36,862 bases of DNA, taken from a virus. The position numbers and the translations under genes are program-made. How positions within the stretch are numbered: position 1 is the first letter of the stretch; every line of letters starts with the position of its first letter. A model generated the notes under the pieces. The model made no database searches and had not been told where the DNA came from. It worked only from the letters and a program-made list of their open reading frames with translations. Below, piece after piece: positions 4,701-36,500 of the stretch. The stretch covers positions 1 to 36,862 of the IMG/VR virus record IMGVR_UViG_3300018424_000077. One strand, written 5' to 3'.

Positions 4701-7700
4701 GTGCATATTCCCAAGAAGAATCACCTCTAAGGAATGTGTAAGAGTTGGCAGTACCCTTACCTGCCATTCTTTCTGGGTCAATTGTACCAGCAACAATATT
4801 GGATGCATCAATATTAGTGGATGTTAACTGTGTCCAGTTTGCAGCATTGGATGCAGAAGTATTGATTGCTCTAGAAAGGTCAACAATTCTCTTTCTGTTG
4901 ACATTACCACTCAGGGTTCCGCTGTTAACGCTGGTAACTGTATACTGGTTAGCGTTGAGGACAGATACTGTATAGAATCCATCAGAAGCCCCACCCGTCG
5001 TAAAATCGAGATATACAAGATCAACGTTGGACAGGTTATGCCCAGTCTCACTAACTGTGATAGTTGTGCCTGACTGAGAATACGTACCTGTGCCTTCGTT
5101 AGCAAGAGACTGATCAAGAATGAAGTCACCAGCATCAAACTTGATATTGTTTGCAATATCAATATCAACACGAGCTTCAATTTGTGCAGAAATGCTTGCG
5201 TTATTTGCCGCACCACCAGGAGATACCTGAACCTGTACAGTTGGTTGGGTGTAGTAACCAGAACCTTTATTTGTGATAGTAACTTTAGTTACACTACCAT
5301 TTACGACATTTGCAGTAGCAGATGCCTGTGTACCACCTGGATCATCAGGAGCACCGATTGTGAGTGCAAAGTCTCCAGTATATCCAGAACCACCATCACT
5401 GATCACAAAGTTGTAGATCAGACCATCGTTGTATGACTGAACAGTACCACGAGCAGTTGTAGAACTACCAACGAGAATATCGTTAACAGTGAATGAATAG
5501 TTGCTGTTAGGTGCAAATGCTAAGAACTGACTTTCAAGGTCATTCTCCAAGATGTAGGAGATTGCAGTGCCTTGTGTGGTAAATGTATGTGTACCTGCGC
5601 CTTGCGTGAGAAGATCAATTGCACTGCCACCATTTGCATTAGATTCGGTAGTGGCAAGTTTGATGTTATCGTTATCAACCTTGATAACATAGTAAACATT
5701 ACCATCAGCAAGACCACCAATGTCACTAGTACCAGAACCATATGTTAATTGGTCACCATCATTTGTTCCATGACCAGGGATTGCAATTGCATCTGTGCTA
5801 GTATTGACAGAACCAGATGCAACGCTAAATGTAGTTGCACTTGTCTCGATAGCAATGTCACCCGCATTAGCATCTTCAATAGCAAGACGCTCTGCTTGAG
5901 ATGTGACAGATGTAATGTTGAAAGGACGCAGAGCAGGGATCTGGTCAATGTTGATCTTACCTGAAGATGTCAACTGAACCAGCGCAGAAGGAACAGCGTT
6001 GGTAGAATATGGTTGGTTCAGGTATGGACCAAGGTTGTTGGAGATGTAGTCTCTAACGGATGCCTGTGTTGGCAGCAGTGAATCAGATGCAAATGTGCCA
6101 CCCAGGTTATCATCATCGGAGAAACCTGTAATAGTGATTGCACCACCAACAATCTTAATGGAGGACAGTTCGGAGATACTAACAGTACCAACGAAACTAA
6201 TAGCACCAGTTCTGTTGAAGATGGTAACGAAATTACCAACCTTAAAGTCACCAAACTCGTTAGTACCCGAGGTATAAACCTGACCGAAGGATTGTTCAGA
6301 TGCTTCGTATGCAGTACCAAGACCAACACCACCGTTCTGAGGCAGTGCAGCATAAGTGTTACCAGCACCAGAGAATTCCCAAGTGTGGGAAGAAGAGTTA
6401 CAGACAGATGGTCTGTGGAACTGGATACCTCTTGTGTGAAGATTGCTCAGTGGCAAACTTCCAGCAACATAAGTAGGGCTACTGGTATTCTGATAGCGAT
6501 TGCCGTTGGAAGTATCAGTATAGTCCATCGCCCTGTTAGTGGTGATGTCTGCAGTAACTTGAGAACCTACAGAACCACTAATGATTTCAGTTTCAAGAAT
6601 GATGTGCTCAGTTGCAGGATCTGTTGGTGATGTGCCACTGATTCTGATGATGTAGTCTTCAACGGGAATGTTTGTCAGATTTGGACCACTAACACGGATG
6701 ACCTGTCTACCTGTTGGAACTCCATTACCATCTAAGTCATCACTGATGTTATCGATAACACCGATATCAAAGTCGTATGGTTCTGCTCTGAAACCAGTTG
6801 CACGAAGTGCGAACGTACCGAAGTTAGATGCTGAGTTAGTAACGGAAGCGTAACCACCAGACTGACAAAGGATACCATCTTGACAGAAGATTGCGAAGAC
6901 AGACACCAACTGAGTGTAACCATCATTACTGATGTTATAAGCAGTACCACCAAAGGAGATGATGGTAAATGCGTTAGCAACCATCGACTTACCTTGTGGG
7001 TCGAAGTTTGCAACGGTGTTACCCTGTGCATTCAGTTTCAGACCTGGACGTGGTACGTTTGGTGTAGCAACCTTAGCACCGTCAATTTCACAACCAGAAC
7101 CACCCAGGAAGGAGATCAGGGAGGAGTTCTGAATGTATGGAGATGCCTCAACAACTGGAAGATCGAGGTTGTTGGAAAGCAGTGGGAAAGAATACAGTCC
7201 GTTATCTTGCTCAGAGATAACTGGATCTGGAGTAGTTACAGTTCCACTATATGCAGTTCCACTAGCAAGAACGTTATCTAAAATACCCCAGTTAGTAACC
7301 AGAGCAGATACAACGTTTGCACACTCAGGTGCACTGCTATCTACAGTAATAGAACCATTTGCAACTGGTGCAATCTGAGAGAATTGTCCATCCTCTAACT
7401 GGTTTCTGATTGCATCAATTGCTAGTTCTTTTGCAGCTGCAAATGTTGCACGAGTAAATTCAACCTCTTCTGGGACGTGTGCGACAGATCCACCACTGAT
7501 GTAGAGGTTGGCTGCTTCAATAGTCTTGGAGTTACCACCATAACGTAAGTCATGGGAGAATGCTCTCAGAATCTTCTGTACGTCGTCGATGCACTGAATG
7601 TCACCAGGAGCAACAGTTCTGGTTACACCGTTGAGGTTACCAGTGCCAGAGTTGGTACCGATAGCGTTTGTAAGGACTGTTGTTAAAGTTGTGATACTAG

Positions 7701-10700
7701 ATGCAACGTCTGCACAGGTTGCATTTGTTGCTGCAGTTCTGGTTGCATGAGACATATTGTCGTTAGCTACCGCAGTAGTAACGATTGCCATCAGGGTATC
7801 TACACTAGACTTGATTGCTGCACAACCGCCTGGATCAACAGTGATGGTGTTGTCTTTGACTTGGGTCAGACCATGACTACCCTGTACAGTTACAGTCTCA
7901 TTGTTGAGGACTTGCTTAGCAATGTCTCTAGCATTGTTAAAGATTGCTTGAGTTTCAGTCTCTTCACCATCGACGTGGGTTGTTCCTGTATAGTATGATG
8001 CAGCATCATATACTGCGTCGTTGCCACCATGTGCCAAGTTGTAGGTCAGCGATCTCAGAACATCTACAACGTCATCAATACAGTTCTGGTTGCCACCAGG
8101 AACATTGAATCCTACGTTAGCGATTGTATATCTCTCAACTGCCTCTGCTGCAATAAATGCGAGGTTCGTGTTGATTTGATTGGCGGCATCACCTACAGAG
8201 TTGTTTAATACTGTATCGAGAGTGACTTGCTCATAATACTGTTGAATAGTGCTATGAGGATGTCTGAGTACAGGAAGGTTTCTAATTACCTGAATTGCAA
8301 AATCACGAGCATAGTTGAAGACCTCTACAGATCTGTCTTGCTCACCTGCAACATGTGCTCCTCTAACGTAGTAGTTCGCAGCATCATATACTCGGTCATT
8401 ACCACCCCATCTGAGGTTGTGTGCCATCGCCAACTGCAGGAAGTCTTTGACATCATCGATGCAAGACTGGTTTCCAGTTGGAATAGTAAAACTACCGTTA
8501 GCAGCAAGCATCTTGCCGACTGCTACCTCAGCGATCATTTCTGCATTAGAGTAGATCGCATCTGCAGCATCTGCATAGCGATCTGCAAATGGTTCGCTGC
8601 CAGGTGTTCTGAATGGTTTCTGGAAATCGTTAAATGTGCCAGTAGTTCCAGTTTGCCCTGTAGATTGAGTATTGCCAAGATCCAGAACAAATCTCTTATC
8701 ATCAAGAATATCATCGATGTCAAATGTTCCATTGGTACTGAGACCAGTGGTACCTGCAATAGTGACTTGAGTTGCAGTTCCACCGTCACTAGAGAACAGG
8801 TTATGACCTCTCTTGACAACGAAGGTTGCTTTAGTGCCAGTAACACTCCAAGATGTGATTGGACGAGTAACTCTTTCTGCTTGTGCTGCGAAAGTGGTTG
8901 GTCCAATGGTCAGAGAAGATGTTCTAGTTTGAGAGTTTTCGTAGTGGGACTTGACATATGCATATGCTTCTTCTGCAATAAACTCTTGGTTAGTCTTGAT
9001 TGCAGTGCCACCATCACGGAATCTGTCAGAAACGTTGACTGCATCAAAACCGTATGGAGAGTTGCGAAGAGATGCCAAAACATAGTTGGCAGAACCAATT
9101 ACGTTCTGGTCACCAGATGGATTCAGTGTTGCGGAGATGTTGGTGATATTTGCTCTAACAACAAACTGCAGCGAGTATCCATCAGCACGCTCGATGCGGT
9201 GTGTGATATACTTTCTACCATTGAGGTCTGCAACGTTATCGAGAACTGATACACCAGAACCGCTAGAAGAAACAATGTTATCTCCCGTGGTTGGAGAATC
9301 GGATTGCTTCAGTACAACAGTAACAGTAGTATTGGAACTATTATAACGTGCATAACCCATACCCAAATCTGTATTGGATGGGAGGCTAGGTGTTCCAGAT
9401 CCTAAGTCAAACTGACCGATATGATATGTCTTACTATAACGATTATCTTCTCCTGGGAAGTTAAATGTCAAACCACCTTCGCCAAGAGTGATCCAATCTG
9501 CGAACAGTGCGGAGGTCTTAGTATTGTCCACACTTGACAGAGTTACAGTAATTAAACCCCCACTGATTGTGTAAGCACTATTAACAGAACCACCAAAGTC
9601 GATGGCACTATTTGTAAATCCATATAACTCAACTTCCGTTCCAACTTCATAATCGTGGAAGTCTGAAGAAACCGAAGAAGTTGCCAGATTGAAGATTGGA
9701 CCATTATAAGTTCCCTGAGTGTTCAGAGAAGTATCAATTGTAGATACTGTTAAAAGTCTTTCACTAACATCAAATCTCTGGAATCCAAGTCCAGCAGATG
9801 TGATATCGATTGTTGTTGGATCGTCAGAACCATCTGCCGCTTTATTTACTGCGTCAGCAGCGGATGCTGCAATACGAATCCAATCGTCGTTTTCTTTATA
9901 TACGAAGTAATTAACATTGTTAGTAAGACCACCAATAGCGCCCATCTTACCAGCACGGTAAGTGATACCATCACCAGTTGTAAATTGGTGTCTTTCAATG
10001 TAAATATTGTTGCTCTCTGGCATTACTGCGCCAGATTTGAACTTATGGTAAAGTCCAGCAGTTGCTTCGCCAGTAAAGTCTCTTCTACCTTGAGTTACGT
10101 TAGTTGCTGCACTAGCATTGGCATACGTATCGTACAACTCAATGTTATCAGCATCAATAGTTCTTACATAGTAAACAGTTTGATCAATCAGACCAGGGAG
10201 TGCTACGGTATCTTCATACTTATCATAGTATACTGCATGACCTGTTTTCAGACCATGACCTGGAATGTTGATTGTATTATTAGTCGTATTTACAGCACTA
10301 GTGCGAGCAAAGAATTTGAGTTCTTCTCTTTCAGCATCTACTGTATGCTGATAGATTTGGTTGGAGATTGTCTCTAGTTCTGGTCTGAGAGATTCTGCAT
10401 CAACAACGTCAAGGCGGTCAGATACACCAGGGTTGTTAATATCTGTGATGATACTAGCAAAACTAGTATTATTATAGAAAATCTTCTCAGCATCCTGGAA
10501 GACATCATTAACGCCAGATGTGATTAGAACTGTAATGTCACCTGTTGAGTTGGGAGATGCATCAGGACCCGTAAAGTTAACTGACTGTACTCTACCTTGT
10601 GTACCAGAAGATCCACCTTGTAAGTATGCGTTAACAAGTAGAGTTAAGTCACTACCTGTGTGGTTGTTGAATGTAATCTTAAAGATGTTCTGACCACGGA

Positions 10701-12417: not shown

Positions 12418-12425
12418 TATTTATA
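12418..12425 (-). promoter_or_regulatory. Late promoter TATAAATA upstream of the 177-residue gene
   Basis: The minus strand carries an exact TATAAATA octamer overlapping the TAA of the 2410-residue gene and ending 20 bases before the next ATG. It matches the T4 late -10 element, which is recognised without a -35 box. The spacing is almost the same as at the gp8 promoter (19 bases). It probably drives the 177-residue gene and the 3369-residue fibre. Confidence 0.75.
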
Positions 12426-15400
12426 CCTTGACCTTGGTGGTTGTGAACCTACCAGTAAAGGATGTGGACGATGTTGCGGCACTTGATTTTGCCAGAGAGA
12501 TGTTGACGCTAGAACCGACAACCGCTACACTTGCATCAACCAAATCATTATCAGATGTTACCGAATTAGTAACTGTTGCATGTGCATCAGTACCTGCTGC
12601 AGCACAAACTACGGTAACCTCAAGCATGTGAACCTTACCATCGTTACTCTCAATAGCAACCAAAACTTTAGCGCCTTTATACTGTGCTTTATCAAATGCA
12701 GTAATAGTTGCAGATGTGCTGAATGTTGTGAGTTGACCACCCTCTACGCGACAATCGTCAAGTTCAACGAAGTCTGCGGTAGAATCCATTACAGTCAGGT
12801 AATTATTTGCTCCACCTGCCTGCCAAGATCTGTTAATTCTCAGACCTGCTTCAGATCCACTACCATCATACGTAATGAAGTTCTTACTATTTAAACGAGT
12901 TACATATTCGTTATAGAGGATATCACTACGAGTAAATGGTGTGCTTGGGCTGGTAATTGAATCAACTTTAATAGTAACGTCTTGGTCTGGAGTTGTGCCA
13001 CCTAGTGAGGTACCTGCAATAGTGATAATTTCACCAACTTCATATGAAGTTCCTCCAGAGGCAACTGTAACAGAGGTAACAGTTCCAGAAGCATTGACCT
13101 CTACATCAACGGTCAAACCAGTACCATCTACCTGTGCGTTAGTTACAATCCCAGTAAACGTAGTGCTTGCTGTATATGATGTAGCAACTTGTGTTAAACT
13201 TGCATTATCAAAAGCGGAAACAATACCTTGTGCAGGAACTGCACGAAGTCTCAAACCATCAATAATTTCAACATCCTTTTGGGATCTAACTTGTAAAATT
13301 GTTTGATCAACAACATTAACATTCAGTGCAGGAGAAAGTGCAGTGCCATTTATACTCAATGTGCCTGCAGTGCGGTATTCAAAGTCTCTAGGATGAATAA
13401 CCGTTGCCATGTTACCCTTATATGTCAGGGTAGTGTTGTTTAACGCTAAGTTATTTTGACCTGCTGCAAAGAATTCAAAAGTATCTTCGTCAGTACCTGG
13501 AGAAGATTCTGTAAGGATGTAGGTATCCTGGTCAACGTCACGGACACCACCCAGAGAAACGAAATCGGATCCGTTGTAACCTTCAAACTGTAACTGGGTT
13601 GTGTTGAATCTGATTGCACCAGTTCTCACATCGAGAGCATCTGGTCTAGAAGTGGTAGGACCAGCAGGAATAATCAGAGCGCCTTCACTATCAATAAGAA
13701 CATCCTTATTAGAAGAAGGTTTAATAATGACACCTTGACCATCAACGTCAATGACAGTAACTGTTCTTCCAGACCCACCACCAACAGAAGGAATAGTGAT
13801 AGGATCACCTACTCTATAGTTTTGACCCTTATCAACGACAGTAACTGTTGAGAAGTCTCCAGATGCAACTGTTACAGTAACAGTCAGACCTGTACCAATT
13901 CCCGTAGTAGTGGTTGCAACATCAGTATACGTACCATCAGTATATCCAGATCCAGTGCCTGTGACCTGTAGATCTAAAACCTGACCGAAGGAACGAACTG
14001 CAGCTGTACTGTTGTTCTGAATGACATTATCTCTAAAACGCAGGATACCTGCATCAAGATTACCACTAGCAGTAATGTCACCCGTTACGGTGTCAATGTT
14101 GAATGTCTCTGTAGTGCCATCAGTGATAGTAAAATCTACGTTAGTGCCACCACCAAATACAAAGTTTCCACCACCTTTAGTTGCAAAGTTCAGTGGAACA
14201 TCAATATCAGTACCATTAGTTGTAATGGTAGAGTTTGCAAGAATCTCAACGTTTGTTGCTGCAGCACCAACAGTAAGTTTTGGTGTAGCAGTATCTACGT
14301 TAAAGAATGGAGTGGAAGAATTAAGAGTAGAATGAACTTTGAGACCAGTGGTATCAAATCCACTAGAAGTAAATCTACTTGTTTCTGTACCTGCGGTAGT
14401 GATGCCAATTACATCTGCATCAGCTCTGAAGAGACCCGTTGTGTCAGAACTATCAAAGGAAAGTGATGGTGTTAAAGCTGATCCATCTTGAAGTTCTAAA
14501 TCTACTTGATCTAATGTATTATCACTACCAGTAGATGTAATGCCACCATTAAATGTAGCAAGACCAGTAAATGTGGAAGTTCCTGTTACAGCAGAAGTTC
14601 CACCAATAGTGATGTTGCCAGTAAGCGACGCCGCTGCTGCTGTAATCTGACCAGTAGAAGTAACACTCCAAGTAGATGTTTGGATTAATCCATCTGGTTG
14701 AATTGTTACTTGATTTCCTCCAGCTTCACCGAGAGTGAGATTTCCTTCCTGTGATAACTCAAGGGATTTAGTTGCTGAGATTGTAGCAATAGAAAGATCT
14801 AAACCTGTTCCTTGTGCTACTCCAACACCACCAACATTACCAAGAATAAGAGTATCTGCTGCTTCGTATGCTTGACCTGGAGTAGTTACTGTTGCTGCAC
14901 TAGCAAAACCTGCATTATTAACAGTGAATTGGAAACCACTACCACCGCCTCCGCCAACAGTAGCATCGTCTACACTCAAGACATCACCAATCTGATAGTC
15001 TTGACCAGTTAGTGAGATATTAGTTACACTGCTAATTCCAGAATTGTTGGCATTGATTGTATATGTAAACCCAGATCCACCTGCAATATCTCCAGTATCA
15101 GCTTGAAGAACGTCACCAACTTTGTAATTCGTTCCTTGTGCTGTAAGAGTTACAGCACTTACAACTCCAGAAGTGACCGTAACATCTGCCTGCATACCTT
15201 CGCCACTTTGACCAGCAGCACCAGTTGCAAAAGAAATGGTACCAGGTTCTTGCATTTGAGCACCATGTACCGTGCAAGTTAAGGTTGACGTTAAACTTAG
15301 TCCCGAAACAGCAGGACCGACAATAACCTCAAAGTATGCACCCGCTGTGCCTGGAGTTCCGAACGCTCTCCCACTAAATCCTGTTACAGCAGTGCCGATG

Positions 15401-18400
15401 GCTAGAGGGTGATTGGCATTAGAAGCATCAGATTGATCATATCGATATGTGTTATCATCAGTCAGAGTTTGGTTAAATGCCTCATTGCCATTAATTAGGT
15501 AGCGATTGACATTTAAAGATGAAACGTCAATGGTTGCTGAGGTTGCACCACTAGTTACATTTTCCTGCTGAGAATCTAAGAAAGTTCCCGTTACGTTATT
15601 GAGGTAAATGTATGATCCAAGTGGATCAACTGCAGTAACTGTACCAGTAGCACCAGAAACACTACCTGTTACGGTATTGCCTACAGAGAACGTTCCAGAA
15701 ATAGCTGTAATGTCGAGTTTATCTCTCTGTACAACAGTAACTGTAAATGTTGTTGTTGGTGGGTTTCTAAGAGCAACTGAATAAGTTGCATCTGTATATC
15801 CACTACCTGCATTGCTGATGGTTCCAGTAAAACCTGGAATTGTAAATGTTGCAGTTGCAGATTGACCACTACCTCCAGTAAATGCTACGTTTGCATAAGT
15901 GCCCGCAGTATATCCAGAACCAGATGCTGTAATAGTACCAGAAACGGATTGGATATCAACTGTAATTGTTGCTCCAGTACCTGCACCATTATCAACTGTG
16001 ATTGCTGGTGCGGTTTCATATCCAGTACCAGCTGTATCTAATGTAATAGCAGAGAGGCGACCAGTCTGTTCGTCCAATACAGGTGTAACTGTTGCTGGAG
16101 ATGTTGGATCACCGCCAACAGTTACTGTGGGGAGACTTCTATATCCTAAACCAAAATTAGAAACATTAATACTGGCGATTGCAAATCCCAGTACAGATGT
16201 ACCGACAGCACCGCTACCAGTTGTATCAAGAGCATCGTTTGTGAATGTTACTCCAGGTGCAGATCCAGATGCATAACTACCAACGGTAGTAATCGTCACC
16301 GAATCAACAGCTTTACCAAGAACGGTATTGAGTTGTTCTCCAGAACCTGCAGCATCAGTTACTGTAATGTTTGGAGCAGTAGAATATCCACTACCATCGT
16401 TAGTAACAGTAATTGCAGTAATGACACCTGCCGCTAAAGTAGCACTGACGGTAGCTTGTTCACCTTGCAAGAACTGAGATCCAGATGGGGAACCAGAAAG
16501 AGAAATTGCAGTTCCTGCATTTGCATTTGCTAAAGAAGACGCAAGTTTAACATTATCACCGTCTACTCTAATTACAAAATAATTTTGTCCACTAGTTAGA
16601 CCACCAATCGCTACAGCAGTAGCGTCAAGTGTGGTAGCATCATAAAGAACTTGATCTCCAGTTTCAAATGGATGAGTTGAAATAGTAATAGAGTTAGCAG
16701 TAGTATCTACAGTATCTGTAGATGCAGTAAATGCCGCTTGGGGTGCTTCATCAACTACTAAGGTTGGTGATGTAAAATTAGAACCACCATTAATAACTTC
16801 TACGGATTGTAATCTACCACCAGGTGCGAGAGAAGCGGTACCAGCAGCTGTTCCAGTGGAAAATGCGACAGTTGGAACTAAAGTGTATCCAGAACCTCTG
16901 TTAGTAAGACTTACAGTCTTAACTCCACCAAGGGTTTCTAAAGTTGCTGTTGCTGTAGCTTTTTGGAATGGTTCTGTGGTTACTTCTACTGCCTGTTGTC
17001 CACCAACGTATCCAGAACCAGCAGCAACAATATTTACAGTACCAATACCGTTCTTGAGAACTACAAAAGATCTGGTGGAGAAGTTGGATACTTCAGATGA
17101 ACCAAAGATTGTACTGTCTCTGAATCCACTGATCTTCAGAGCACCTTGTACTGTACTACCAAACGCGATGGATTTGTTGACATCAAAATAGATTGCTTCT
17201 TTAACAATCGTTTCTGCGTTTACAACAAAGTCTTCTTGACCAGCAGGGTCAACGATTACCTGACCTGTCGTAGATGTCAGACTGTTACCAGCAAGTCGTA
17301 AGTTTCCAGTTTCAATGTATGCTGGATAGATGTTAGTAGTACCAGTTCCATCACTCAATGTGATGTTGGCAGCAGATTGTGCTTGAGAAGTTGCCTGGAA
17401 CTGAACGTTACCAGTGCTCTGATCAACTACAAATGCATCACCAACTCTAAAGTCTCCCTTTTCGTTGGTTGCTGAGTAGAATATTCTACCGCCATTGAGC
17501 TCAGTAACTTCATTTGCCTGAACTGCCAATGATGGATCATTAGAGAAGTCAGAGTCTGCACCAATATATGCAAAGTTATGACTTGTCAGGAGCAGTTTTA
17601 CACCAGCACCATCTGCAACAGCACCCTTTGTGCCATAGATGTTTGCAGAGGAGATGGAGCGCAGTTCTGCACCGAACTGAGAATAGTCAGCAGTAATTAC
17701 TGAGGTTGCAGAATCTCCACCGCTAGAACGAACGTCAGAAATACCACCAGATGCATCATCAAATGTTGTGAGTGCGTCTGTTCCATTAGCGTGCAGCAGG
17801 AGTACCGTGTTCAGATCTGTCGAGTATTCACTAGTTGTTGGTGTGAATGCTCCAGTAAAGCGACCAGCACCTTTACTTACACGGACTTCATCAATGTGTC
17901 CAGTAAATTCTTCTGTAGGTGCAGTTGTATTGAAGTTAGCACCAATTGCCAATGGTTTTGTAGAACCATAGTCATTGGTGTCTGTAAATGATGCAACCTG
18001 TGTACCATCAACGAAAATGCGTGTTGTACCACCGCTACGTGCCGCTGCAATATGGTACCAAGTGCCTGTGGCAAGAGAACCCCCAGACTGTGCTGCACCG
18101 TTGCCTACGGCGTAATTAAGGGTGTATGGTGAGGTACCTGACAGATACAGTGTAGGTGCGGTATCTGTAGCAGATGCATCACGGAAGTCAAAAATTCTTT
18201 GTGTACCAGAACCACCATTTGGTCTGATGAAACATTCAAACGCAAAGTTAGAAGTACCAAAACCGAAGTCTTCAGAGGTTGGAACAGTCAGTTGGTCCTC
18301 AGTTCCGTCAAACAGAATAGATGCTGTACCAAACTTCTGTTGAGCAGTGTCTAACTGAGTATCACCGAATCTGGAGGTAGTCTTGGATTGTTTTGTTACA

Positions 18401-19653
18401 GTGGTAAACTCGCCAGTGCCTTTACCAGTGATGAATACGTATGTACCATCGTTACTAGAGACTGTACCGCGAGCAACTGCTTTCTTATAAGTTACGTTAC
18501 CCGAAGTAGTGCCAGAACTAGTATCAGTGTATGTAAAACTATTAACGTTAGATACTGTTACTTGATAGAATCCATCATTAGCAGAACCACTAATATGGTC
18601 AGCATAGATGTAGTCATTTGTGGTTAAACCGTGTGCAGTTCTTGTTACAGTAACAGTGGTTCCACTTCTAGCGTAAGTACCAGACTGGAAACTATCTTCT
18701 AACTGATATGCAACTTCGTTAGTCGAGAACGTTCCACTAACACCACCAAGTTTCAGACGAGTGTTTCCTGTGCCATATCTACCAGTGGCACCCTGAACAC
18801 CCTTAATACCTTCAGATGCAAAGTATACGAAAGAGTTCAACCACTCAACACGTACACCGTTAGTGACAAGTAAACCTACAGCATTAGGTACAATAAAAGT
18901 TACCTCATTGAAGAGGACTGCAGATTCAATGCTATTAGAGTTAAATAATGCACCATCTAACTTGGCACCACGACCAGCGTCACCCTGAGCAAATCCATAT
19001 GGATCAGTGCCAGAAGTTACACTACCTTTGGTGAGTACAGTTACTCTTTCAATATATGGAGATTTGTCAGAGCTCAAAGACGATGCACACACAAATCCAT
19101 AACCAGTATCATTACCAGAGTTATAGAAAAAGTCCTTGATTGTCAAATCAGAGACCTGAGAATCACCTTGAAGAACAAAAGCGTTTAAATCATTAGTTGC
19201 ACTACTAGGTCTAATTTGTGTAGAGCGAAGATTGGTACCACGAACTGTTACACCATCGGGAACAGTCAGTGGGAAGGTCTCCTGGTAATCACCAGGGGCA
19301 ATTAGAACAGTATCACCAGAAGATGCTAGACTGAGTGCTTTAGCAATTGTTAGGAATGGCGTATCTGGGTGCTTGCCATTATCTCCACCATTTGCTAGTG
19401 TGTTATTATCTGTTCCTACCGAGGCAACATAATACGTATTGCCCTGACCATTGGTGATGTCAGTAGCAAACATTGTGGTAACAACCTCGCCTGTATTAGG
19501 CTTTTGGTTTGCAACCTCAATGATATTTGCACCATTTCTGGCGTATAGTTTTCGATCAGCTATATTAAGCGCGACTTCTCCGTCTTCTAAATTAGAAGTC
19601 GTCGGTACTGCCGCTACCGTTGTTGATCTCTTGAGCTTGATTCTCGTTGCCAT
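12421..19653 (-). CDS. Giant modular tail-fibre protein with beta-helix and LamG-like lectin domain (2410 residues)
   Basis: Its N-terminus has the fibre docking motif IKLKRSTTVAAVPTTSNLED with VALNIADRKLYARNG (1-45). A right-handed beta-helix follows, starting at YYVASVGTDNN and PGDYQETFPLTVPDGVTVRG (about 72-285). Next come an HGL/DGxY beta module (about 325-395) and a LamG or concanavalin-like domain (about 439-620: ILFDG, FECFIRPNG, GTWYHIAAARSGG, IFVDGTQVASF, HIDEVRVSKG). There is then a GDFRVGDAFVVDQSTGNVQF element (about 730), a long array of GxGY beta repeats (about 870-1610), and fibre segments with a few more repeats. The C-terminal beta domain contains YKGAKVLVAIESNDGKVHML. It is inferred to be a host-contacting fibre that probably trimerises and binds carbohydrate. 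The start at 19651-19653 overlaps the preceding small gene by 62 bases; TTGAGAA lies ahead of it. Confidence 0.88.
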   Translation of the reverse strand: MATRIKLKRSTTVAAVPTTSNLEDGEVALNIADRKLYARNGANIIEVANQKPNTGEVVTTMFATDITNGQGNTYYVASVGTDNNTLANGGDNGKHPDTPFLTIAKALSLASSGDTVLIAPGDYQETFPLTVPDGVTVRGTNLRSTQIRPSSATNDLNAFVLQGDSQVSDLTIKDFFYNSGNDTGYGFVCASSLSSDKSPYIERVTVLTKGSVTSGTDPYGFAQGDAGRGAKLDGALFNSNSIESAVLFNEVTFIVPNAVGLLVTNGVRVEWLNSFVYFASEGIKGVQGATGRYGTGNTRLKLGGVSGTFSTNEVAYQLEDSFQSGTYARSGTTVTVTRTAHGLTTNDYIYADHISGSANDGFYQVTVSNVNSFTYTDTSSGTTSGNVTYKKAVARGTVSSNDGTYVFITGKGTGEFTTVTKQSKTTSRFGDTQLDTAQQKFGTASILFDGTEDQLTVPTSEDFGFGTSNFAFECFIRPNGGSGTQRIFDFRDASATDTAPTLYLSGTSPYTLNYAVGNGAAQSGGSLATGTWYHIAAARSGGTTRIFVDGTQVASFTDTNDYGSTKPLAIGANFNTTAPTEEFTGHIDEVRVSKGAGRFTGAFTPTTSEYSTDLNTVLLLHANGTDALTTFDDASGGISDVRSSGGDSATSVITADYSQFGAELRSISSANIYGTKGAVADGAGVKLLLTSHNFAYIGADSDFSNDPSLAVQANEVTELNGGRIFYSATNEKGDFRVGDAFVVDQSTGNVQFQATSQAQSAANITLSDGTGTTNIYPAYIETGNLRLAGNSLTSTTGQVIVDPAGQEDFVVNAETIVKEAIYFDVNKSIAFGSTVQGALKISGFRDSTIFGSSEVSNFSTRSFVVLKNGIGTVNIVAAGSGYVGGQQAVEVTTEPFQKATATATLETLGGVKTVSLTNRGSGYTLVPTVAFSTGTAAGTASLAPGGRLQSVEVINGGSNFTSPTLVVDEAPQAAFTASTDTVDTTANSITISTHPFETGDQVLYDATTLDATAVAIGGLTSGQNYFVIRVDGDNVKLASSLANANAGTAISLSGSPSGSQFLQGEQATVSATLAAGVITAITVTNDGSGYSTAPNITVTDAAGSGEQLNTVLGKAVDSVTITTVGSYASGSAPGVTFTNDALDTTGSGAVGTSVLGFAIASINVSNFGLGYRSLPTVTVGGDPTSPATVTPVLDEQTGRLSAITLDTAGTGYETAPAITVDNGAGTGATITVDIQSVSGTITASGSGYTAGTYANVAFTGGSGQSATATFTIPGFTGTISNAGSGYTDATYSVALRNPPTTTFTVTVVQRDKLDITAISGTFSVGNTVTGSVSGATGTVTAVDPLGSYIYLNNVTGTFLDSQQENVTSGATSATIDVSSLNVNRYLINGNEAFNQTLTDDNTYRYDQSDASNANHPLAIGTAVTGFSGRAFGTPGTAGAYFEVIVGPAVSGLSLTSTLTCTVHGAQMQEPGTISFATGAAGQSGEGMQADVTVTSGVVSAVTLTAQGTNYKVGDVLQADTGDIAGGSGFTYTINANNSGISSVTNISLTGQDYQIGDVLSVDDATVGGGGGSGFQFTVNNAGFASAATVTTPGQAYEAADTLILGNVGGVGVAQGTGLDLSIATISATKSLELSQEGNLTLGEAGGNQVTIQPDGLIQTSTWSVTSTGQITAAAASLTGNITIGGTSAVTGTSTFTGLATFNGGITSTGSDNTLDQVDLELQDGSALTPSLSFDSSDTTGLFRADADVIGITTAGTETSRFTSSGFDTTGLKVHSTLNSSTPFFNVDTATPKLTVGAAATNVEILANSTITTNGTDIDVPLNFATKGGGNFVFGGGTNVDFTITDGTTETFNIDTVTGDITASGNLDAGILRFRDNVIQNNSTAAVRSFGQVLDLQVTGTGSGYTDGTYTDVATTTTGIGTGLTVTVTVASGDFSTVTVVDKGQNYRVGDPITIPSVGGGSGRTVTVIDVDGQGVIIKPSSNKDVLIDSEGALIIPAGPTTSRPDALDVRTGAIRFNTTQLQFEGYNGSDFVSLGGVRDVDQDTYILTESSPGTDEDTFEFFAAGQNNLALNNTTLTYKGNMATVIHPRDFEYRTAGTLSINGTALSPALNVNVVDQTILQVRSQKDVEIIDGLRLRAVPAQGIVSAFDNASLTQVATSYTASTTFTGIVTNAQVDGTGLTVDVEVNASGTVTSVTVASGGTSYEVGEIITIAGTSLGGTTPDQDVTIKVDSITSPSTPFTRSDILYNEYVTRLNSKNFITYDGSGSEAGLRINRSWQAGGANNYLTVMDSTADFVELDDCRVEGGQLTTFSTSATITAFDKAQYKGAKVLVAIESNDGKVHMLEVTVVCAAAGTDAHATVTNSVTSDNDLVDASVAVVGSSVNISLAKSSAATSSTSFTGRFTTTKVKV
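13030..17050 (-). repeat. Array of GxGY short beta repeats in the 2410-residue fibre
   Basis: About fifteen copies of a 25-45 residue repeat are encoded, densest at 14810-17050 with outliers near 13820-13950 and 13040. Two forms alternate. The first is like GSGYSTAPNITVTDAAGSG or GTGYETAPAITVDNGAGTG. The second is like GTNYKVGDVLQADTGD followed by GGSGF, or GQNYRVGDPITIPSVGGGSG. The strand-turn-strand pattern suggests a beta-solenoid or a string of hairpins. Related copies are in the other giants and in gp8. Confidence 0.8.
17790..18340 (-). other. LamG/concanavalin A-like lectin domain within the 2410-residue fibre
   Basis: The encoded segment has the hallmarks of a Laminin-G_3 type jelly roll: SILFDGTEDQLTVP at the start, FAFECFIRPN, GTWYHIAAARSG, TRIFVDGTQVASF, LAIGANFN and GHIDEVRVSKGAGRF at the end. 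Such domains bind sugars in many phage and bacterial adhesins. It stands between the beta-helix and the repeat array. Confidence 0.8.
18800..19440 (-). other. Right-handed beta-helix (pectate-lyase-like) domain within the 2410-residue fibre
   Basis: The segment runs from YYVASVGTDNN through PFLTIAKALSLASSGDTVLI, APGDYQETFPL and GVTVRGTNLRSTQIRP to RVEWLNSFVYFASEGIKG, which is the usual start of a DUF1565-type beta-helix. A similar opening (VYVSSTIGSDDNDGR) is encoded near 11160 in the 3369-residue protein. No catalytic residues can be assigned, so enzymatic activity is not claimed. Confidence 0.75.
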
Positions 19654-28961: not shown

Positions 28962-30476
28962 TTAGAATTCTATTACTACTTTGATCTCTTCGTTTTGATC
29001 TGCCGATCTTGTAATCGGGTTTCTATTATCTATGTAGAGCACTTCTCCAGAGTTAATTTCAATTTCTTCATTGGCGTAACCACCAACAAATGCTAATCCA
29101 AGTTCATACACAGAAACACCAATTGTAATCTGCGATACAGGAACAGAAGATGATCCGAATGATGCATCTGGTGTTGCTGTGATACTATTAACACTGGAGG
29201 TAATCTGATTTGAACCAGAGAACGCTACTACGTTACCTAAAGTAACGCCATCAGTCTCATTTTGATAATACTTCAAGACTTTTGTTGTGGAATTGTATGA
29301 AACCACAAAACCCTTTGCGTTTGTTGTTGCTTGAGTGATAGTTTCTCCAGGAGTAAACGTACCACTTGGAGATCCAGTTCCAGATTGAGGGAAGATCATT
29401 GCCTTTACAGCAGATCTTGTATTCTGACTGGAAACTGTAGTTGTGTTATAATCATATGGGTTCAGAATCAAACCCACTCTTCTATATGTAAGGTCATTTG
29501 GAAAATCAACAAAAGCACTAGTTGTTTCCAACTTACTAGTGAACATTAGACGATATCCACCCAGTTCTCTAACGGCATCACTTCCATGACCACCATTTGG
29601 TGGGAGAACAACGTCAAGAACTGCTCCTGTACCATTACCAATATTTGGAATAGATGCAACATCAATAGTAGCAAAGGAATACTTGGTTCCTGCTTGAGTG
29701 ATAGTTACGTTAGAAATTGCACCAGAAACAACAGTTACTGTACAAAGACCTTGTGTTCCGCCATTGATTTCATAATCACCTTTAATAGGAACATTAGTAT
29801 ATGTGCCGTTACTGTAACCAGCACCAGCATTTTCAATGACTACGGTATCAATAGAACCACTGCTAGCAGCATCTCTTACAAGAGTATTTGTTAAAACGGG
29901 AATAAACTCAGTAGTAACAAACTTCAGAATGTTGTCAGCATCAATAGTATACATGTACTTCCAACGATAGGAGTAGTTGCCTGGGCTATCGCTAGTTTCA
30001 ATAATAGTAGTCGATGTACCAGTTGGTTCTACCAAAGATGGACGACCTCTTGGATAATCTGGAGACTGACCATTATACAGACACTTGTAGACATTGAAAT
30101 CACTATTCATGACATAGAAGTTACTGTCAAACAGTCTAGAAGAACCGTTTGCAGTAGTCTTAGTAGGTGCATAATCTGGTTTGTACATAGAATATACACG
30201 ACCAGTTCCACCAGTAGTCTGAGATGGATCAATCCAATCTACTCTTGGGATTACCAGAGAAGTGTCAGAGATGTCAACTCTTTTGAATGCTACAGAATCT
30301 CTATATGTTTGTCTGTAATACTCAAAGCTGTCAATAGGCTCACCAGATGGAGGAACATCCGTGGCACCCCACGACTTTGCTCGTCCAACGAACATGTACA
30401 CCTTATTTTCAGTCAGAAGAGTATTTCTGAAGCTTTCTGCGGCGTATATTCTAAATTTATCAGTTACAAGTGCCAT
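28962..30476 (-). CDS. 8: Baseplate wedge subunit, T4 gp8 homologue with enlarged loops
   Basis: Several blocks match T4 gp8 as I remember it. VTDKFR occurs near the start and LVIPRVDW near residue 75. YRWKYMYTIDADN is followed by TTEFIPVL (about 170-195), and YRRVGLILNPYDYN comes at about 345. The C-terminus GEVLYIDNRNPI plus DQNEEIKVVIEF corresponds to T4's MENRPPI and DQTEEINILFTF. In T4, gp8 is a dimer that joins the wedge to gp7 and gp10 and helps the baseplate change shape. This protein has 504 residues against 334 in T4. The additions are a GxGY repeat segment (about 205-310: NAGAGYSNGTYTNVP) and an F..GE module segment (about 365-470: GTFTPGETITQATTNAKGFV). It has a late promoter 19 bases upstream, and its stop touches the next start codon. 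Confidence 0.9.
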   Translation of the reverse strand: MALVTDKFRIYAAESFRNTLLTENKVYMFVGRAKSWGATDVPPSGEPIDSFEYYRQTYRDSVAFKRVDISDTSLVIPRVDWIDPSQTTGGTGRVYSMYKPDYAPTKTTANGSSRLFDSNFYVMNSDFNVYKCLYNGQSPDYPRGRPSLVEPTGTSTTIIETSDSPGNYSYRWKYMYTIDADNILKFVTTEFIPVLTNTLVRDAASSGSIDTVVIENAGAGYSNGTYTNVPIKGDYEINGGTQGLCTVTVVSGAISNVTITQAGTKYSFATIDVASIPNIGNGTGAVLDVVLPPNGGHGSDAVRELGGYRLMFTSKLETTSAFVDFPNDLTYRRVGLILNPYDYNTTTVSSQNTRSAVKAMIFPQSGTGSPSGTFTPGETITQATTNAKGFVVSYNSTTKVLKYYQNETDGVTLGNVVAFSGSNQITSSVNSITATPDASFGSSSVPVSQITIGVSVYELGLAFVGGYANEEIEINSGEVLYIDNRNPITRSADQNEEIKVVIEF

Positions 30477-30503: not shown

Positions 30504-33500
30504 ATGATCTCTGGCGAACTTCCAGACCAATTCTGAACGTACCGCTATCATTTGCAGTCAATGCTGCAGTCATAGTAATAGTGAGTGTGTTTCCGCTTAC
30601 GTTCGTGATGGTATACTCTCCATCGGCAGTGAATGTTCCAGATGTACCATTTACATAAATTGTGCCACCTTGTACATACGGATGTGCGCCCAGAACACCA
30701 GTATTAGTGATGTCAAGTTCTACATCCCTACCGTTTGCCTGAACTGTATAATTTCCTGCATAGCAGGTTAAAGTTCCAGCAGTAGTTCCCCCATATCCTC
30801 TACCGCCAGTTGCAACAGTAAATATATCAGTTGATCTGTTTACAGCGCCGTAGAGAATTCTCTCCAGTTTTGCATTACCATTATCGAAGTATTTAACCAT
30901 CAATTCACCCTCATCTGGGAATCCAATCGCTTGAGTGGAGTTCCATTCAGAAGAAGAAAGTTCAATAGTAGTATCCGAACTAGTGCTATCTGCAATTACA
31001 TATGCACCTGCCAGTGGAAGAGAATTGGATATTAATCTGTTTCTTTGTTTCCTCTCAACATGTACTGGGTGGAATGGGCGAACAATTGGTGTAGATGTAT
31101 ATCCTGCGCCGCCGTTGAGATTTACGACACCGATAACTCTACCACTTCCCTCCTCAATCACAGTCTGAGCACTAGCTCCATCTCCATCACCACCAGTAAA
31201 TACAAGGATTGGAGGAACCTCATAGTTTGAACCAGGATTAATAATATTAACTGCAACAACTTCACCGCCGACAACAGTTGCTGTAAATTCTGCTACAGTT
31301 GGTCTCAGTGAAGTATATTCATATGTATCAACAGTTGAGGAACTAGAAACAACCGCAAGTCTACGTTCATCTCCTTCACTAGCAACTTGTAAAATATCAT
31401 CAGGATCAATAGAATTATATGTGTTCTCCAGAAGAATATCTGTAGAGGAACCTGTATAGATGTACAGTTCGCAAGTAGATCCTGCTCTTGGTGCCTCAGT
31501 AAACTCAATAATTGCTCCATTCAATTCATAAGAAATACCAGGTTCTTGGAATACCCCATTTACAAAGATAAACAAGTTATTTGATGCATTTACTGCAGGA
31601 TTATCTGATTCGAGGGAGAAAGGTTGAGCATTATTTTTTAAAATAAAGGTTTTCTTGGTATTATCAAAGAATGGTGCAATTGTGTCCAGAAGTGTCAACT
31701 TCCCGAAATAGAAACCATAGAAGTCCATTCCTGGAAGAGGTGCTTCATTAAAAGTGATATTACTTCCAGTGTATGTGTAAGATTCATCAGAACCTTTGAC
31801 TTGAAGTGTGCTATTTAAGAAGATGAGGAAATTATCAGATGCGGGCAGACTATATGAAGAACCGCCAACTAATGCAGTGAATGTAGTATCAGTTCCATCG
31901 AACGTTACCTGATCAATCTTAACTTGGAACTCAGGAATATATGCTGCTTGTCTAGTAATACTGTTTAGGTTACCTGGAGAACCAGTAGAACCAATAGCAG
32001 TAGATACGATACCAAACAGAGTTGTAATCGTAGATGCAATATCAGCACAATCACTAGTGTCATAGGTGCTATCACCACTGTCATCAGTAATTGTATTATC
32101 AGTAACTTGAGACCCAACAGTCTCAGAGTTAGTAGTTACCGTAATGTTACGCATAACCTCACGGCAGATGTCTCTAGCATGGTTGTAAACCTCTACAGAT
32201 TCATCTTCTTCACCAGTTAGATGTGCAGAACCCACGTAAGTCTTCGCTGCATCATAAGTAGCATCATTACCACCAAATTCTACGTTATCTGCAACTGCCT
32301 CAATGATAAGCTTAGTATCGCGAATGCACTTAGTAACGTCTGGGTTTGTAAATCCAGAGTTGGCAGGATCATTGATCATTCTGCCATATGCAGTTGTAGC
32401 AATGAAATTGGTGTTAAGTCTGATCAGCCTTGCTGCGTCAGCAACTCTATGATAGTTCCAAGTTCCCAGTGGATCAGAACCAGCGCCAGTTGTTAGATCA
32501 CTTACTCCAACAATATCGTCTGAGGTATAACCATTACCTGCGTTGTTAATAACAACGTTGGTAACTCTAGTTCCACTAACAGTAATATCAGCCGTTGCGC
32601 CAGTACCACTGCCGCGCTTGTTAACCAGTGGCACATCTGTATATGATCCATCTGTGTATCCATAACCAGGAACAAGACCATCGGTAAGATCGAAGGTTTT
32701 AATTTCGTCACCAATCTGATCGAGTTGGAAGCTAGAAGTATACGATGCACGATCGTAATACATCATCAAGAACTCAGATCCATCAAGAGGTGCTGTACTA
32801 AAAGTGATTATATCGTTAGCAAATGTATAATTTTGAGGATTCTGTACAATACCGTTAATAATTACAAACAACTGAGACTTAGCAGCAGTTTTTCCAATCT
32901 TGGTGGAAATATCCGAATTTGCTGTTCTCAGTTTGAATTTAGTATTAACACCATCCGCTTTTACATTAAGTTGGTGACCAACTCCTTCACCAATGGCAGA
33001 GAAGTTGATTGCAGATCCACCAGAGGTTGCTGCCAACTCAATCGTATTAGCATCAACATACTTAATAAAGTATGGATCTCCAGAAGTCAATCCGCCAATA
33101 GATGTACCAGTTCTCTGCTGAGGATAGTTTCCTCTATCTTCATTTGGAATAGTTCCTGGATTGTCTATACCCTCAGTAATAATTGCTGCAAGAGTTGTAA
33201 TAGCACTTTGTACATTTGCACAATTATTAGAATCATTAGTAATGCTTGCATCTACGTATGGTGTGATGTCAGTATATGTGCCTGCAGGCAGATTATTGTT
33301 AATTGCCAACAGAACAAGATCTCTTGCCTTATTATATGCAAAGATTGTTTCGGTCTCTTCACCACCAATATGCAGAGTGCTGCTAGAAGGAGCAACTCTT
33401 GTTACACCAGTCAGATTGTCATTTGAGATTGCATCTGTTAGAATTGTAAACAGAGTATCCATAGAAGATACTACGTCAGTACACCCACCAACAACGTTAG

Positions 33501-36500
33501 TAATAGTGTTGTCAATGAATTGGGTTCTAGATGTGTGCTGTGCAGTGATCGCTACATTGTTAATAACATCTACACAAAGGGTTTCTGCAATCTCAAAGGT
33601 TTTGACTGCCTGTGGTTCTTCACCGTCAAGGTGTACAGTGCCAACATAGAGATTTGCAGCGTCATACACTTCACTGTTGCCGCCATATGCTACGTTATAG
33701 CTTAAGGATTCGATGAAGTCTACAACGTCATCAATGCAGTTTTGAGACCCACCTGGGACACCTGGGAAACCAGATGGAAGACCCACTGTAGGATCTTGCA
33801 GCATTCTACCTACTGCTTCCTCAGCGATAAACTCTTTGTTTGCTCTCAGGAGATTACGTGCATCGGCAGCACGATCGGATACTGGTGCAACCTGACCAAC
33901 ATAAGAATTAGTTGCTTCCACAGTGAAGTAATTGCCACCATATCTCAGATCATTTGCCCAAGCAACAACAACTAATCTGGTATCTCTAGCGCAAGTTGCT
34001 TGAGTATACGACAGAGAAGGATAATTTGCATTTAATGCCCCAATTGTTTCCTCAACAATATAATCAATATTAGCGATGATAAGATCTCTAGCATCTTGGA
34101 AACGATCTCCTCCAGCGTTGTAAGTTACTCTCTGACCCTCAACAAAACCATGGTTTGTTAATGTAATTTGATTGTTGGAAATATTTACTACGTTGGAATC
34201 AGATGCATCGAATGAAACTGTACGGTCATCCGTCTTATCAATCTTATATGCAACACATGTAAGAATTTTCTGGATATCTAACAGTTGTCTACCGAGCAGT
34301 TCAACTTCCGTAGGAACTGCTGCTGTGTAATCTGGTTTGCCCAGAGCAAAGTTATTGATTAGAGAGAGTTTACCAACATTCTTTGCTTGTGGTTTAGGGA
34401 AGATAAATGTTTGTCCACTAAATGTACTTGGTGGAGTTTGTACTGGGTTCTGAACCCACCAATCAAATTGACTTGTGGAAGACAGGTTTTTGAAAGAAGA
34501 TGGTCTGTACAGTTTGGCAGTAGATTCAGAAATAATCTGAGTACCGACAACCTTAAATCCTGCAGGGTGTGCAGCAAACTTAAGTGGGTTTCTCCAATCA
34601 TTAATATTGATAGAAGAAGAAACATTGTAAGAGAATTCTTGGAATCTGTCACTATCGTACAGTCTCTGCTCATTGAGATCGAGAACACCAGTGGTTCTTT
34701 CAAAGCGTTGAGAAGAAATGCTGATTGGAGAAACTTCAAATGTAGCTTCTGCTCTTTCAAAAGAGTGAATTGCCCCAAACGCAGAAGATTCTTGACCAAA
34801 GACAGGTTCACCTACTTTAAATTCTCCACTAGTAATCTCAACACTAACAACACGACCATTTGGATCCCAGTTCTTAATAAATCCAGATGCTGTAAATGAT
34901 GTGTTAGATGCACCTTGGAAAATTCTTTCACCAACTTGGAAATTTGCAGGTTTCATGTAGGCTTTGATTTTATCACCCAAGTCTGTAGTTGACAGACTGA
35001 ATACTGTTTGTCCATTTGCACCGCCAACAGGATCTGTTGTAAATACAATGGTTGTTCCTGCATTTGCATTTGCAAGACTGGTAGCAAGTCTAATTTGGTT
35101 ATCTCCCAGACCATTTGCTACAGTAGCTGCAACTGCATAGTAAGTTGTGGTTGTATTCAATGGAGAAGGTAACACTCCCTGCGATACATTTAATGTAACT
35201 GCAGTTCCTGTAGGAATTTTGGTATTATATGGGAAGTTGAGTGTGCTACTAGATTTGATAGCAACAAATTGATGAGTTACCTTTGCCTTTACTGTAGGTG
35301 CAGAGAAGAAACCTCTACCTGGATTAACAACCTTAACTTCTTGAATAACTTCATTCTCAATAACAGCATCCAAGTCAAACAGAGAACCACTACCACCTTC
35401 TAGAATAATTTCTGGTACAGAAACGAAACTAGATCCACCATCAATCACATCAAGGTAATCAATAATTTGAGTTCTAATAAGTTGCAGATTATAAGTGGTA
35501 TTCAACTCTGGTTTCAAAGTGGTATCATGACTATAGTTGTAAGTGATGTTATCACCAGAAATCTTAACAATCTCACCAAGGTTACTAGACTTAAGGAGAA
35601 TAGATGCACCAGAACCAAGGTCCTGTTCAATGTTTACTACAGGAGCAGACGTGTACTGCTGACCAGCATTTTCAATGTTAATTGTCGAGACACCCTCGTT
35701 AACTAACAGTGCATTGAATTTGGCATCGATGCCATTGCCACCAGTTACTTTAATATCTGGTGCCGACAGATATCCAGATCCACTATTAGTAACAGTAATA
35801 GAATCTACAGAAGCGTTGATCTTAGTTGCAAATTGAACAACGTCATTGTGTGTCAATGCGCTAACTGTCACAGTGACATCATCAGTAGTATCGACACCAC
35901 CAAGAGAAGCACCAGAAATCGTAATTACATCTCCTAGTGCATATGTACTACCTCCATCAGTAACAGTTACGGTAGAAATGTCTCCACTTCCATCAGTGAC
36001 AATAGTAAATTCTACGTCAATTCCGCCCGTGGGTGCAACACTCTTTTGCGAAACCTCAGTGAACGATGTAGATGCAGTAAACTGACCATTGGTGTTTTGC
36101 GTAATTGTTCCAACAGTAGATACCAATCCATAGTATGGATCTGACATAATAATCTCAGGTGCAGTTCTATAGTTACTACCACCGTTATTGATAACAATTT
36201 CAGAAACTCTACCAACATCTGGACCAGTTGATGGTACTACTGCTGCAACTTGCGCTTGAGTTCCACTAATAGAACTAATATCTGCAGAAGAATCGGAAGA
36301 GATTATTTTATTGGTGTTTGCATTATTGTTGGTAAACATAATGAAACCATTTAATGCAGCACCTTGTCTGGTATTTCTAAGTGGTTTCAATCTCAGTACA
36401 GATGTCAAAGGATTCCACGAGATAACTCTACCTCTTGCAGTTTGAATGCCTTGAGTTTCTTGAGAGATTACAATCTCATTAGGAACAAAAGATCCAAATA

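Follow-up and report, generated by a model that had tools for sequence, protein, structure and literature searches.

In phycobilisomes, the alpha and beta subunits of the phycobiliproteins pair through their N-terminal helices (X, Y and A), and the first bilin site of these proteins (Cys84) has Asp87 as its partner aspartate. Beta-subunit bilins attach at Cys82/84 and at Cys153-158, with Asp39 holding the pyrrole nitrogens of the Cys153 bilin (PMC6614406). Cyanophages carry genes for bilin synthesis and attachment that have been called a mystery, and many such phages infect Prochlorococcus, which is without phycobilisomes (PMC3037559). Here, we describe a site in the baseplate wedge protein gp7 of a cyanophage at which a small beta module is split by two nested helical units that are predicted to have the phycobiliprotein fold. 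The sequence analysed is the whole of a 36,862-base IMG/VR virus record (IMGVR_UViG_3300018424_000077, hereafter the window). This is a fragment of a Eurybiavirus-like cyanomyophage, and the nearest isolates for the region are the Prochlorococcus phages P-HM2, P-HM1 and MED4-213 (Eurybiavirus). The giant open reading frame (ORF) at its right edge is gp7, as indicated by homology together with the gp6-gp7-gp8 gene order of T4-like phages: it matches phrog_2885 (baseplate wedge subunit) in PHROGs with E 8.7e-207 and aligns with gp7 of P-HM1, P-HM2 and MED4-213, which is 4446-4458 aa long in these isolates.

An earlier note on this DNA had proposed that a cassette of about 330 residues sits in the middle of one beta module of gp7, taking a module in the window's 3369-residue protein as the intact reference. 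Both elements are borne out, the reference copy having been located (Table 1) and the 70-residue gp7 module breaking after residue 918 and restarting at 1253, which leaves an insert of 334 residues. When compared separately with a hidden Markov model (HMM) of 79 distinct intact modules, from which the split gp7 site was left out, the N-terminal half scores 13.8 bits at positions 1-23 and the C-terminal half 15.1 bits at positions 28-75. Rejoined, the halves form one domain of 35.5 bits (E 4.9e-10 at Z=1000), and sequences shuffled from these letters reach 13.5 bits at best in 5,000 trials. Given the complementary positions and a joined score above that of the shuffles, the halves are parts of one module. 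In a structure model of the real gp7 region, the strands flanking the insert have a predicted local distance difference test score (pLDDT) of ~76-93, a per-residue confidence that is silent on the packing of the halves. Searches of Pfam and of PDB sequences gave no convincing relative of the beta module.

The identity of the insert outweighs the confirmed split in importance. A profile of nine units searched against PDB sequences placed 53 phycobiliproteins ahead of the first unrelated match (best E 5.5e-4), and with a more diverse profile of 22 units the best E improved to 1.5e-6 and phycobiliproteins accounted for all 60 of the matches listed. The reversed-sequence profile control found no phycobiliprotein in the PDB, its best match being to cathepsins at E 0.64. 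Searched singly, 11 of the 22 units match the Pfam family PF00502 (Phycobilisome), the best with E 2.8e-6, and among NCBIfam models those for phycoerythrin and phycocyanin subunits match units (CpeA, E 1.5e-4). A PF00502 match is also present at residues 1219-1277 of the 3369-residue protein, where its 22.2 bits are exactly the Pfam cut-off.

Structure prediction points the same way. A template-free AlphaFold model of unit 2, built on an alignment from which rows of annotated phages were left out, has a pLDDT of 88.7 and a predicted template modelling score of 0.87. All of the top 50 Foldseek matches of this model in the PDB are phycobiliproteins, as are the top 50 in VIA-align (Z 16.9, root-mean-square deviation 2.6 A over 140 residues, 20% identity); the nested unit taken from the whole-region model gives a VIA-align Z of 16.3. 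The units are thus predicted to have the phycobiliprotein fold. Most of the unit's relatives in a viral model library are tail or structural proteins of cyanophages. Structure and profile alignments begin at beta-subunit residue 27-35, and the phage residues that precede this point belong to the beta module or to a linker. As helices X, Y and A are therefore absent, we refer to a phycobiliprotein-like domain and not to a phycobiliprotein. No relative came up when bacterial genomes were scanned with one unit as the query. We found no report of this domain in open papers, a result by which its absence from the literature cannot be proved. Separately, whole-protein scans returned matches to BNR_assoc_N, FIVAR and similar Pfam families; these were isolated and weak, and were rejected.

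The insert had been described in the earlier note as filled by helical units. The helical units stand, with a fold now predicted for them, but they do not form a row: one unit is split by a second, complete unit. The unit profile matches gp7 of the window three times, with positions 3-78 at residues 918-991, 3-160 at 995-1147 and 82-160 at 1163-1234, and this order places unit 2 inside unit 1. A comparable arrangement is found in the 3369-residue protein, where the stretch between the outer pieces holds a unit A (residues 1088-1206, with a restart at ~1376 that was read by eye) broken by a complete unit B (1217-1359). Nesting can go one level deeper. Of our numbered orthologous loci, L022-L029 have three units at the gp7 site, and in L022, L024, L027 and L028 the profile order 3-79, 3-131, 3-160, 137-160, 82-160 indicates unit 3 in unit 2 in unit 1, all within the beta module. 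The nesting, the variation from one to three units and the phycobiliprotein fold are all new relative to the earlier note. The highest number of unit matches among viral contigs is sixteen, on a single contig fragment (L067).

Table 1. Positions in the window of the split module, the nested units and related features
Feature	Positions	Strand	Basis or remark
Split beta module, N-terminal half (gp7 residues 895-918)	34108..34179	-	Intact-module HMM positions 1-23; sequence ...SNNQITLTNHGFVEGQRVTYNAGG
Insert, 334 residues (919-1252), including an 18-residue linker at the C end	33106..34107	-	
Phycobiliprotein-like unit 1, N-terminal part, CARD motif (C957, D960)	33889..34107	-	Unit profile 3-78
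Phycobiliprotein-like unit 2, complete, inside unit 1; CIDD motif C1042, second Cys C1127	33421..33879	-	Unit profile 3-160; AlphaFold model; fold searches
Phycobiliprotein-like unit 1, C-terminal part, second Cys C1214	33160..33375	-	Unit profile 82-160
Split beta module, C-terminal half (gp7 residues 1253-1298)	32968..33105	-	Intact-module HMM positions 28-75; sequence TSIGGLTSGDPYFIKYVDANTIELAATSGGSAINFSAIGEGVGHQL
Further complete phycobiliprotein-like unit in gp7 (residues 1470-1625)	31987..32454	-	
Intact beta module in the same gp7 (residues 537-613)	35023..35253	-	103.9 bits, intact-module HMM
Intact beta module in 3369-residue protein (residues 2016-2084)	5593..5799	-	Reference copy of the earlier note
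Nested phycobiliprotein-like units in 3369-residue protein	7267..9027	-	Outer unit pieces at residues 940-975 and 1410-1526
gp7, C-terminal 2120 residues	30499..36861	-	ORF open at 5' end, off right edge
gp8 baseplate wedge subunit	28962..30476	-	phrog_438, E 4.2e-167; next gene downstream of gp7

In the orthologs collected first, the half-modules are separated by 168-171, 337-342 or 509-514 residues, which corresponds to one, two or three units. A search for relatives free of the insert, scanning with the upstream flank, identified four gp7 orthologs (L094, L095, L098 and L105) in which the site has no unit and the module runs on unbroken, reading ...NRITLTAHGLVENQTVTFTGD-IGGLTTGTVYYVDVVDANTISLKP... 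across the joint (for example VTFTGD-IGGLTTGTVYYVDVVDANTI). This agrees with the proposal in the earlier note of domain insertion rather than tandem addition. In more distant homologs from Kyanoviridae the whole module is missing at the gp7 site, and a query with the flank on the C-terminal side found no relatives. In a tree of 243 flanking residues upstream of the module, rooted on the module-less Kyanoviridae homologs, all carriers of the cassette fall in one supported clade (100/96) and the unsplit loci lie outside it. Only four changes on this tree explain the five states of the site. The one-unit clade is nested within two-unit lineages, so the inner unit was probably lost again there. 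The site thus offers a clean natural series, from no module through the intact module to one, two and three nested units, that is well suited to the study of how large structural proteins grow by domain insertion.

Two other features of gp7 vary among these loci. In L094, L098 and L105 a different, beta-rich insertion of ~100 residues (GVADAISDGTTTYTAASGTTYTPSTGLLVLEIGSHSLTTSN...) directly follows the unsplit module, and repeats similar to it occupy large gaps at other places in the gp7 proteins of the P-HM phages. P-HM1, P-HM2 and MED4-213 (L001-L003) have an additional tandem intact beta module of ~80 residues that the window is without at ~36334, after residue 176 of the gp7 ORF.

Because the insert carriers form one supported clade on the rooted tree, insertion is the better reading than deletion, and we regard it as almost certain that the insert arose by domain insertion into the beta module. 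The reverse history, with an ancestral split state and loss of the cassette in the unsplit orthologs, was envisaged in the earlier note as a way to overturn its proposal. It draws some credit from the apparently clean loss of a nested unit in the one-unit clade and from an insecure root, the outgroup branch being long at 5 changes per column, and this branch weakens our polarity, which is favoured but short of proof. However, the intact orthologs lie outside the supported clade of all carriers, and both intact modules (79 distinct) and units are common away from this site, making ancestral splitting improbable. The relationship of the units to phycobiliproteins can be questioned in a similar manner, in that helical domains easily reach high structural scores and the sequence identity is just ~20%, so that a phage helical bundle might resemble phycobiliproteins without common descent. 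Such convergence would have to account for the profile E of 1.5e-6 with phycobiliproteins in every one of the listed matches and none for the reversed profile, for the reciprocal Pfam and NCBIfam matches, for the agreement of the pigment-site residues, and for the occurrence of the units only in viruses of organisms that make phycobiliproteins. We consider it very improbable and have little doubt that units and phycobiliproteins are homologous.

Given this homology, we examined the residues that hold the pigment in 328 distinct phage unit sequences, counting at each position those sequences that have a residue there. The equivalent of Cys84 is kept in 241 of 243 and that of Asp87 in 242 of 246, and both are present in the units of the window. 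At the second site, the Asp39 equivalent is kept in 220 of 223 and the Cys153/155 equivalent in 178 of 187; in the structure alignment, with a C-terminal offset of 22, C136 of the unit falls on residue 158. In four distinct units the Cys84 and Asp87 equivalents are kept and the second cysteine is absent, so the two cysteines need not occur together. That they form a disulfide within the domain seems to us unlikely.

The phycobiliprotein-like domains are restricted to cyanophages. Three different units used as queries matched 327, 346 and 353 phage records, all with names of cyanophages or cyanobacterial hosts bar one "Marine" record. In 29 cyanophage genomes, we compared the presence of the unit with that of the T-type bilin lyase CpeT, and found both in 20, the unit only in 1, CpeT only in none and neither in 8. 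An uncorrected Fisher p of 2e-6 for this comparison was dropped as a measure of its strength since shared ancestry explains most of it, and with so few independent events no corrected significance can be attached to the association. Gene neighbourhood provides a line of evidence that is partly separate: in S-PM2, cpeT is located 1.4 kb upstream of a unit-bearing tail-fibre gene, and in S-RSM4, S-WAM2, ACG-2014i, S-CAM3 and Syn1 CpeT matches are found a few kb from unit-bearing frames. Three Eurybiavirus isolates (P-HM1, P-HM2 and MED4-213) also carry a bilin reductase. Two annotation matters arose in these genomes. The CpeT match in Syn1 (NC_015288.1, 19950-20462) is clear, with E 1.5e-35, and a published table of 16 cyanophages lists Syn1 without cpeT; in S-PM2 (NC_006820.1, 168556-173383), tRNA genes are annotated within the open, unit-encoding tail-fibre gene, which is probably an annotation offset.

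As both attachment cysteines and the aspartates of the pyrrole nitrogens are kept, a bilin covalently bound to the units in vivo may be deduced, and we give it an even chance. Several observations weigh against a pigmented unit loaded by CpeT. With helices X, Y and A gone, the units cannot close the bilin pocket in the way an alpha-beta pair does. At the Arg86 position, adjacent to the attachment cysteine, 70 of ~246 units have Asp, and the kept cysteines and aspartates could serve another role. S-SKS1 has a unit without detectable CpeT, and on a capsid-protein tree the absences of unit and CpeT fall in two clades, which makes one or two independent events. The distribution of pebS does not follow that of the domain, as P-SSM2 and S-SSM7 have pebS and no detected unit. 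In addition, phage lyases are currently assigned to the host antenna (PMC10665884).

Two alternatives take up these points. The units may have derived from phycobiliproteins and now be bilin-free, acting as rigid helical spacers or binding surfaces with their cysteines kept for other purposes, such as bonds between units. That the bilin is a deduction, that the N-terminal helices are missing and that tandem and nested use resembles that of a structural building block all suit such a role. Against it, both cysteines and both partner aspartates are near-invariant among copies only 23-57% identical to the window unit, the four units that lack the second cysteine show that the two need not occur together, and in the matched fold the two bilin sites lie far apart. 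We hold bilin-free units to be a serious possibility, if somewhat short of an even one. Alternatively, phage CpeT could act on the antenna proteins of the host, its co-occurrence with the tail domain reflecting shared ancestry only, and this we rate as only slightly less probable than its opposite. The small number of independent events is compatible with it, as is the reported rise in phycoerythrin per cell during S-PM2 infection (PMC2984593). However, phages whose isolation host was Prochlorococcus, which has no phycobilisomes, have cpeT too, and the gene lies within the tail-fibre cluster of S-PM2 and close to unit-bearing frames in the other five phages named above.

Taken as a whole, serial insertion of units into gp7, with the units as bilin-carrying domains and CpeT as their loader, is to us the best explanation, and a moderately probable one. 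A phycobiliprotein-like domain comprising helices B to H would have entered a loop of the small beta module. Its own loop after helix F would then have received a second copy, and this copy, in one clade, a third one in the loop that precedes its last helix. After each insertion the host domain would remain foldable, and the baseplate would gain projecting helical domains. Bilin may be attached at one or both sites of a unit, and the likely loader is CpeT, since it is encoded by nearly all of the tested unit-bearing phages and in several lies just upstream of the domain-bearing tail-fibre gene. The bilin could be supplied by the host or made with phage ho1, pebS or pcyA. This suggests that the tail may carry a light-absorbing pigment. 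More tentatively, the pigment might serve the free virion, in light-sensitive adsorption, photoprotection or stability.

The more specific idea that CpeT-loaded bilins on units of the tail or baseplate sense light and gate adsorption is unlikely on what we have. Why adsorption of cyanophages depends on light is unexplained, and the domain suggests a candidate. Adsorption of S-PM2 is reportedly light-dependent (as Jia and colleagues are said to have found in 2010), and P-SSM2 we take to be a dark adsorber. Units are present in P-HM2 and S-PM2, and none were detected in P-SSP7 and P-SSM2. P-HM2 shows about no adsorption in the dark and P-SSP7 adsorbs in light and dark (PMC7112961); light-dependent adsorption is known for several cyanomyoviruses (PMC2984593). 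So far the pattern fits four phages and is only a hint. It is further weakened by P-SSP7 being a podovirus that differs in most other respects.

The large genes of the window lie on the minus strand. Besides gp7 and gp8 they encode a structural protein of 2219 residues and three tail-fibre-like proteins, which are 558, 2410 and 3369 residues long. The 2410-aa protein (12424-19653, minus strand) has a Laminin G-like (concanavalin-type) lectin domain at residues 449-595 (Pfam E 7.2e-22), plausibly a glycan-binding part of the tail fibre. A 235-residue ORF at 160-864 on the minus strand bears the PHROGs label "DNA endonuclease V"; judged by eye only, its sequence (HNDSNYLGAFTFYCH...) is more like a 2-oxoglutarate/Fe(II) oxygenase.

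Compared with gp7 of the T4-like cyanophages P-HM1, P-HM2 and MED4-213, the gene of the window is orthologous, occupies the same position between gp6 and gp8 and has its beta module split at the same joint, but where those isolates have one unit at the site the window has two, nested. As in known domain insertions in other proteins, the insertion is into a loop and both halves of the host domain are kept; unlike them, the same domain is here inserted within itself to two or three levels, in numbers that vary among close relatives. With phycobiliproteins (phycoerythrin and phycocyanin beta subunits, PF00502) the units share the predicted fold over nearly their entire length and the equivalents of Cys84/Asp87 and Cys153-158/Asp39, whereas they are ~20% identical, embedded in a baseplate or tail protein, often nested, and only putative carriers of a bilin. 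Finally, the cyanophage bilin genes pebS, pcyA, ho1 and cpeT occur in the same phages and concern the same pigment chemistry. Those genes encode metabolic enzymes of unexplained benefit, while the units, which belong to structural proteins of the phage and have kept both bilin sites, are a possible acceptor for their product.

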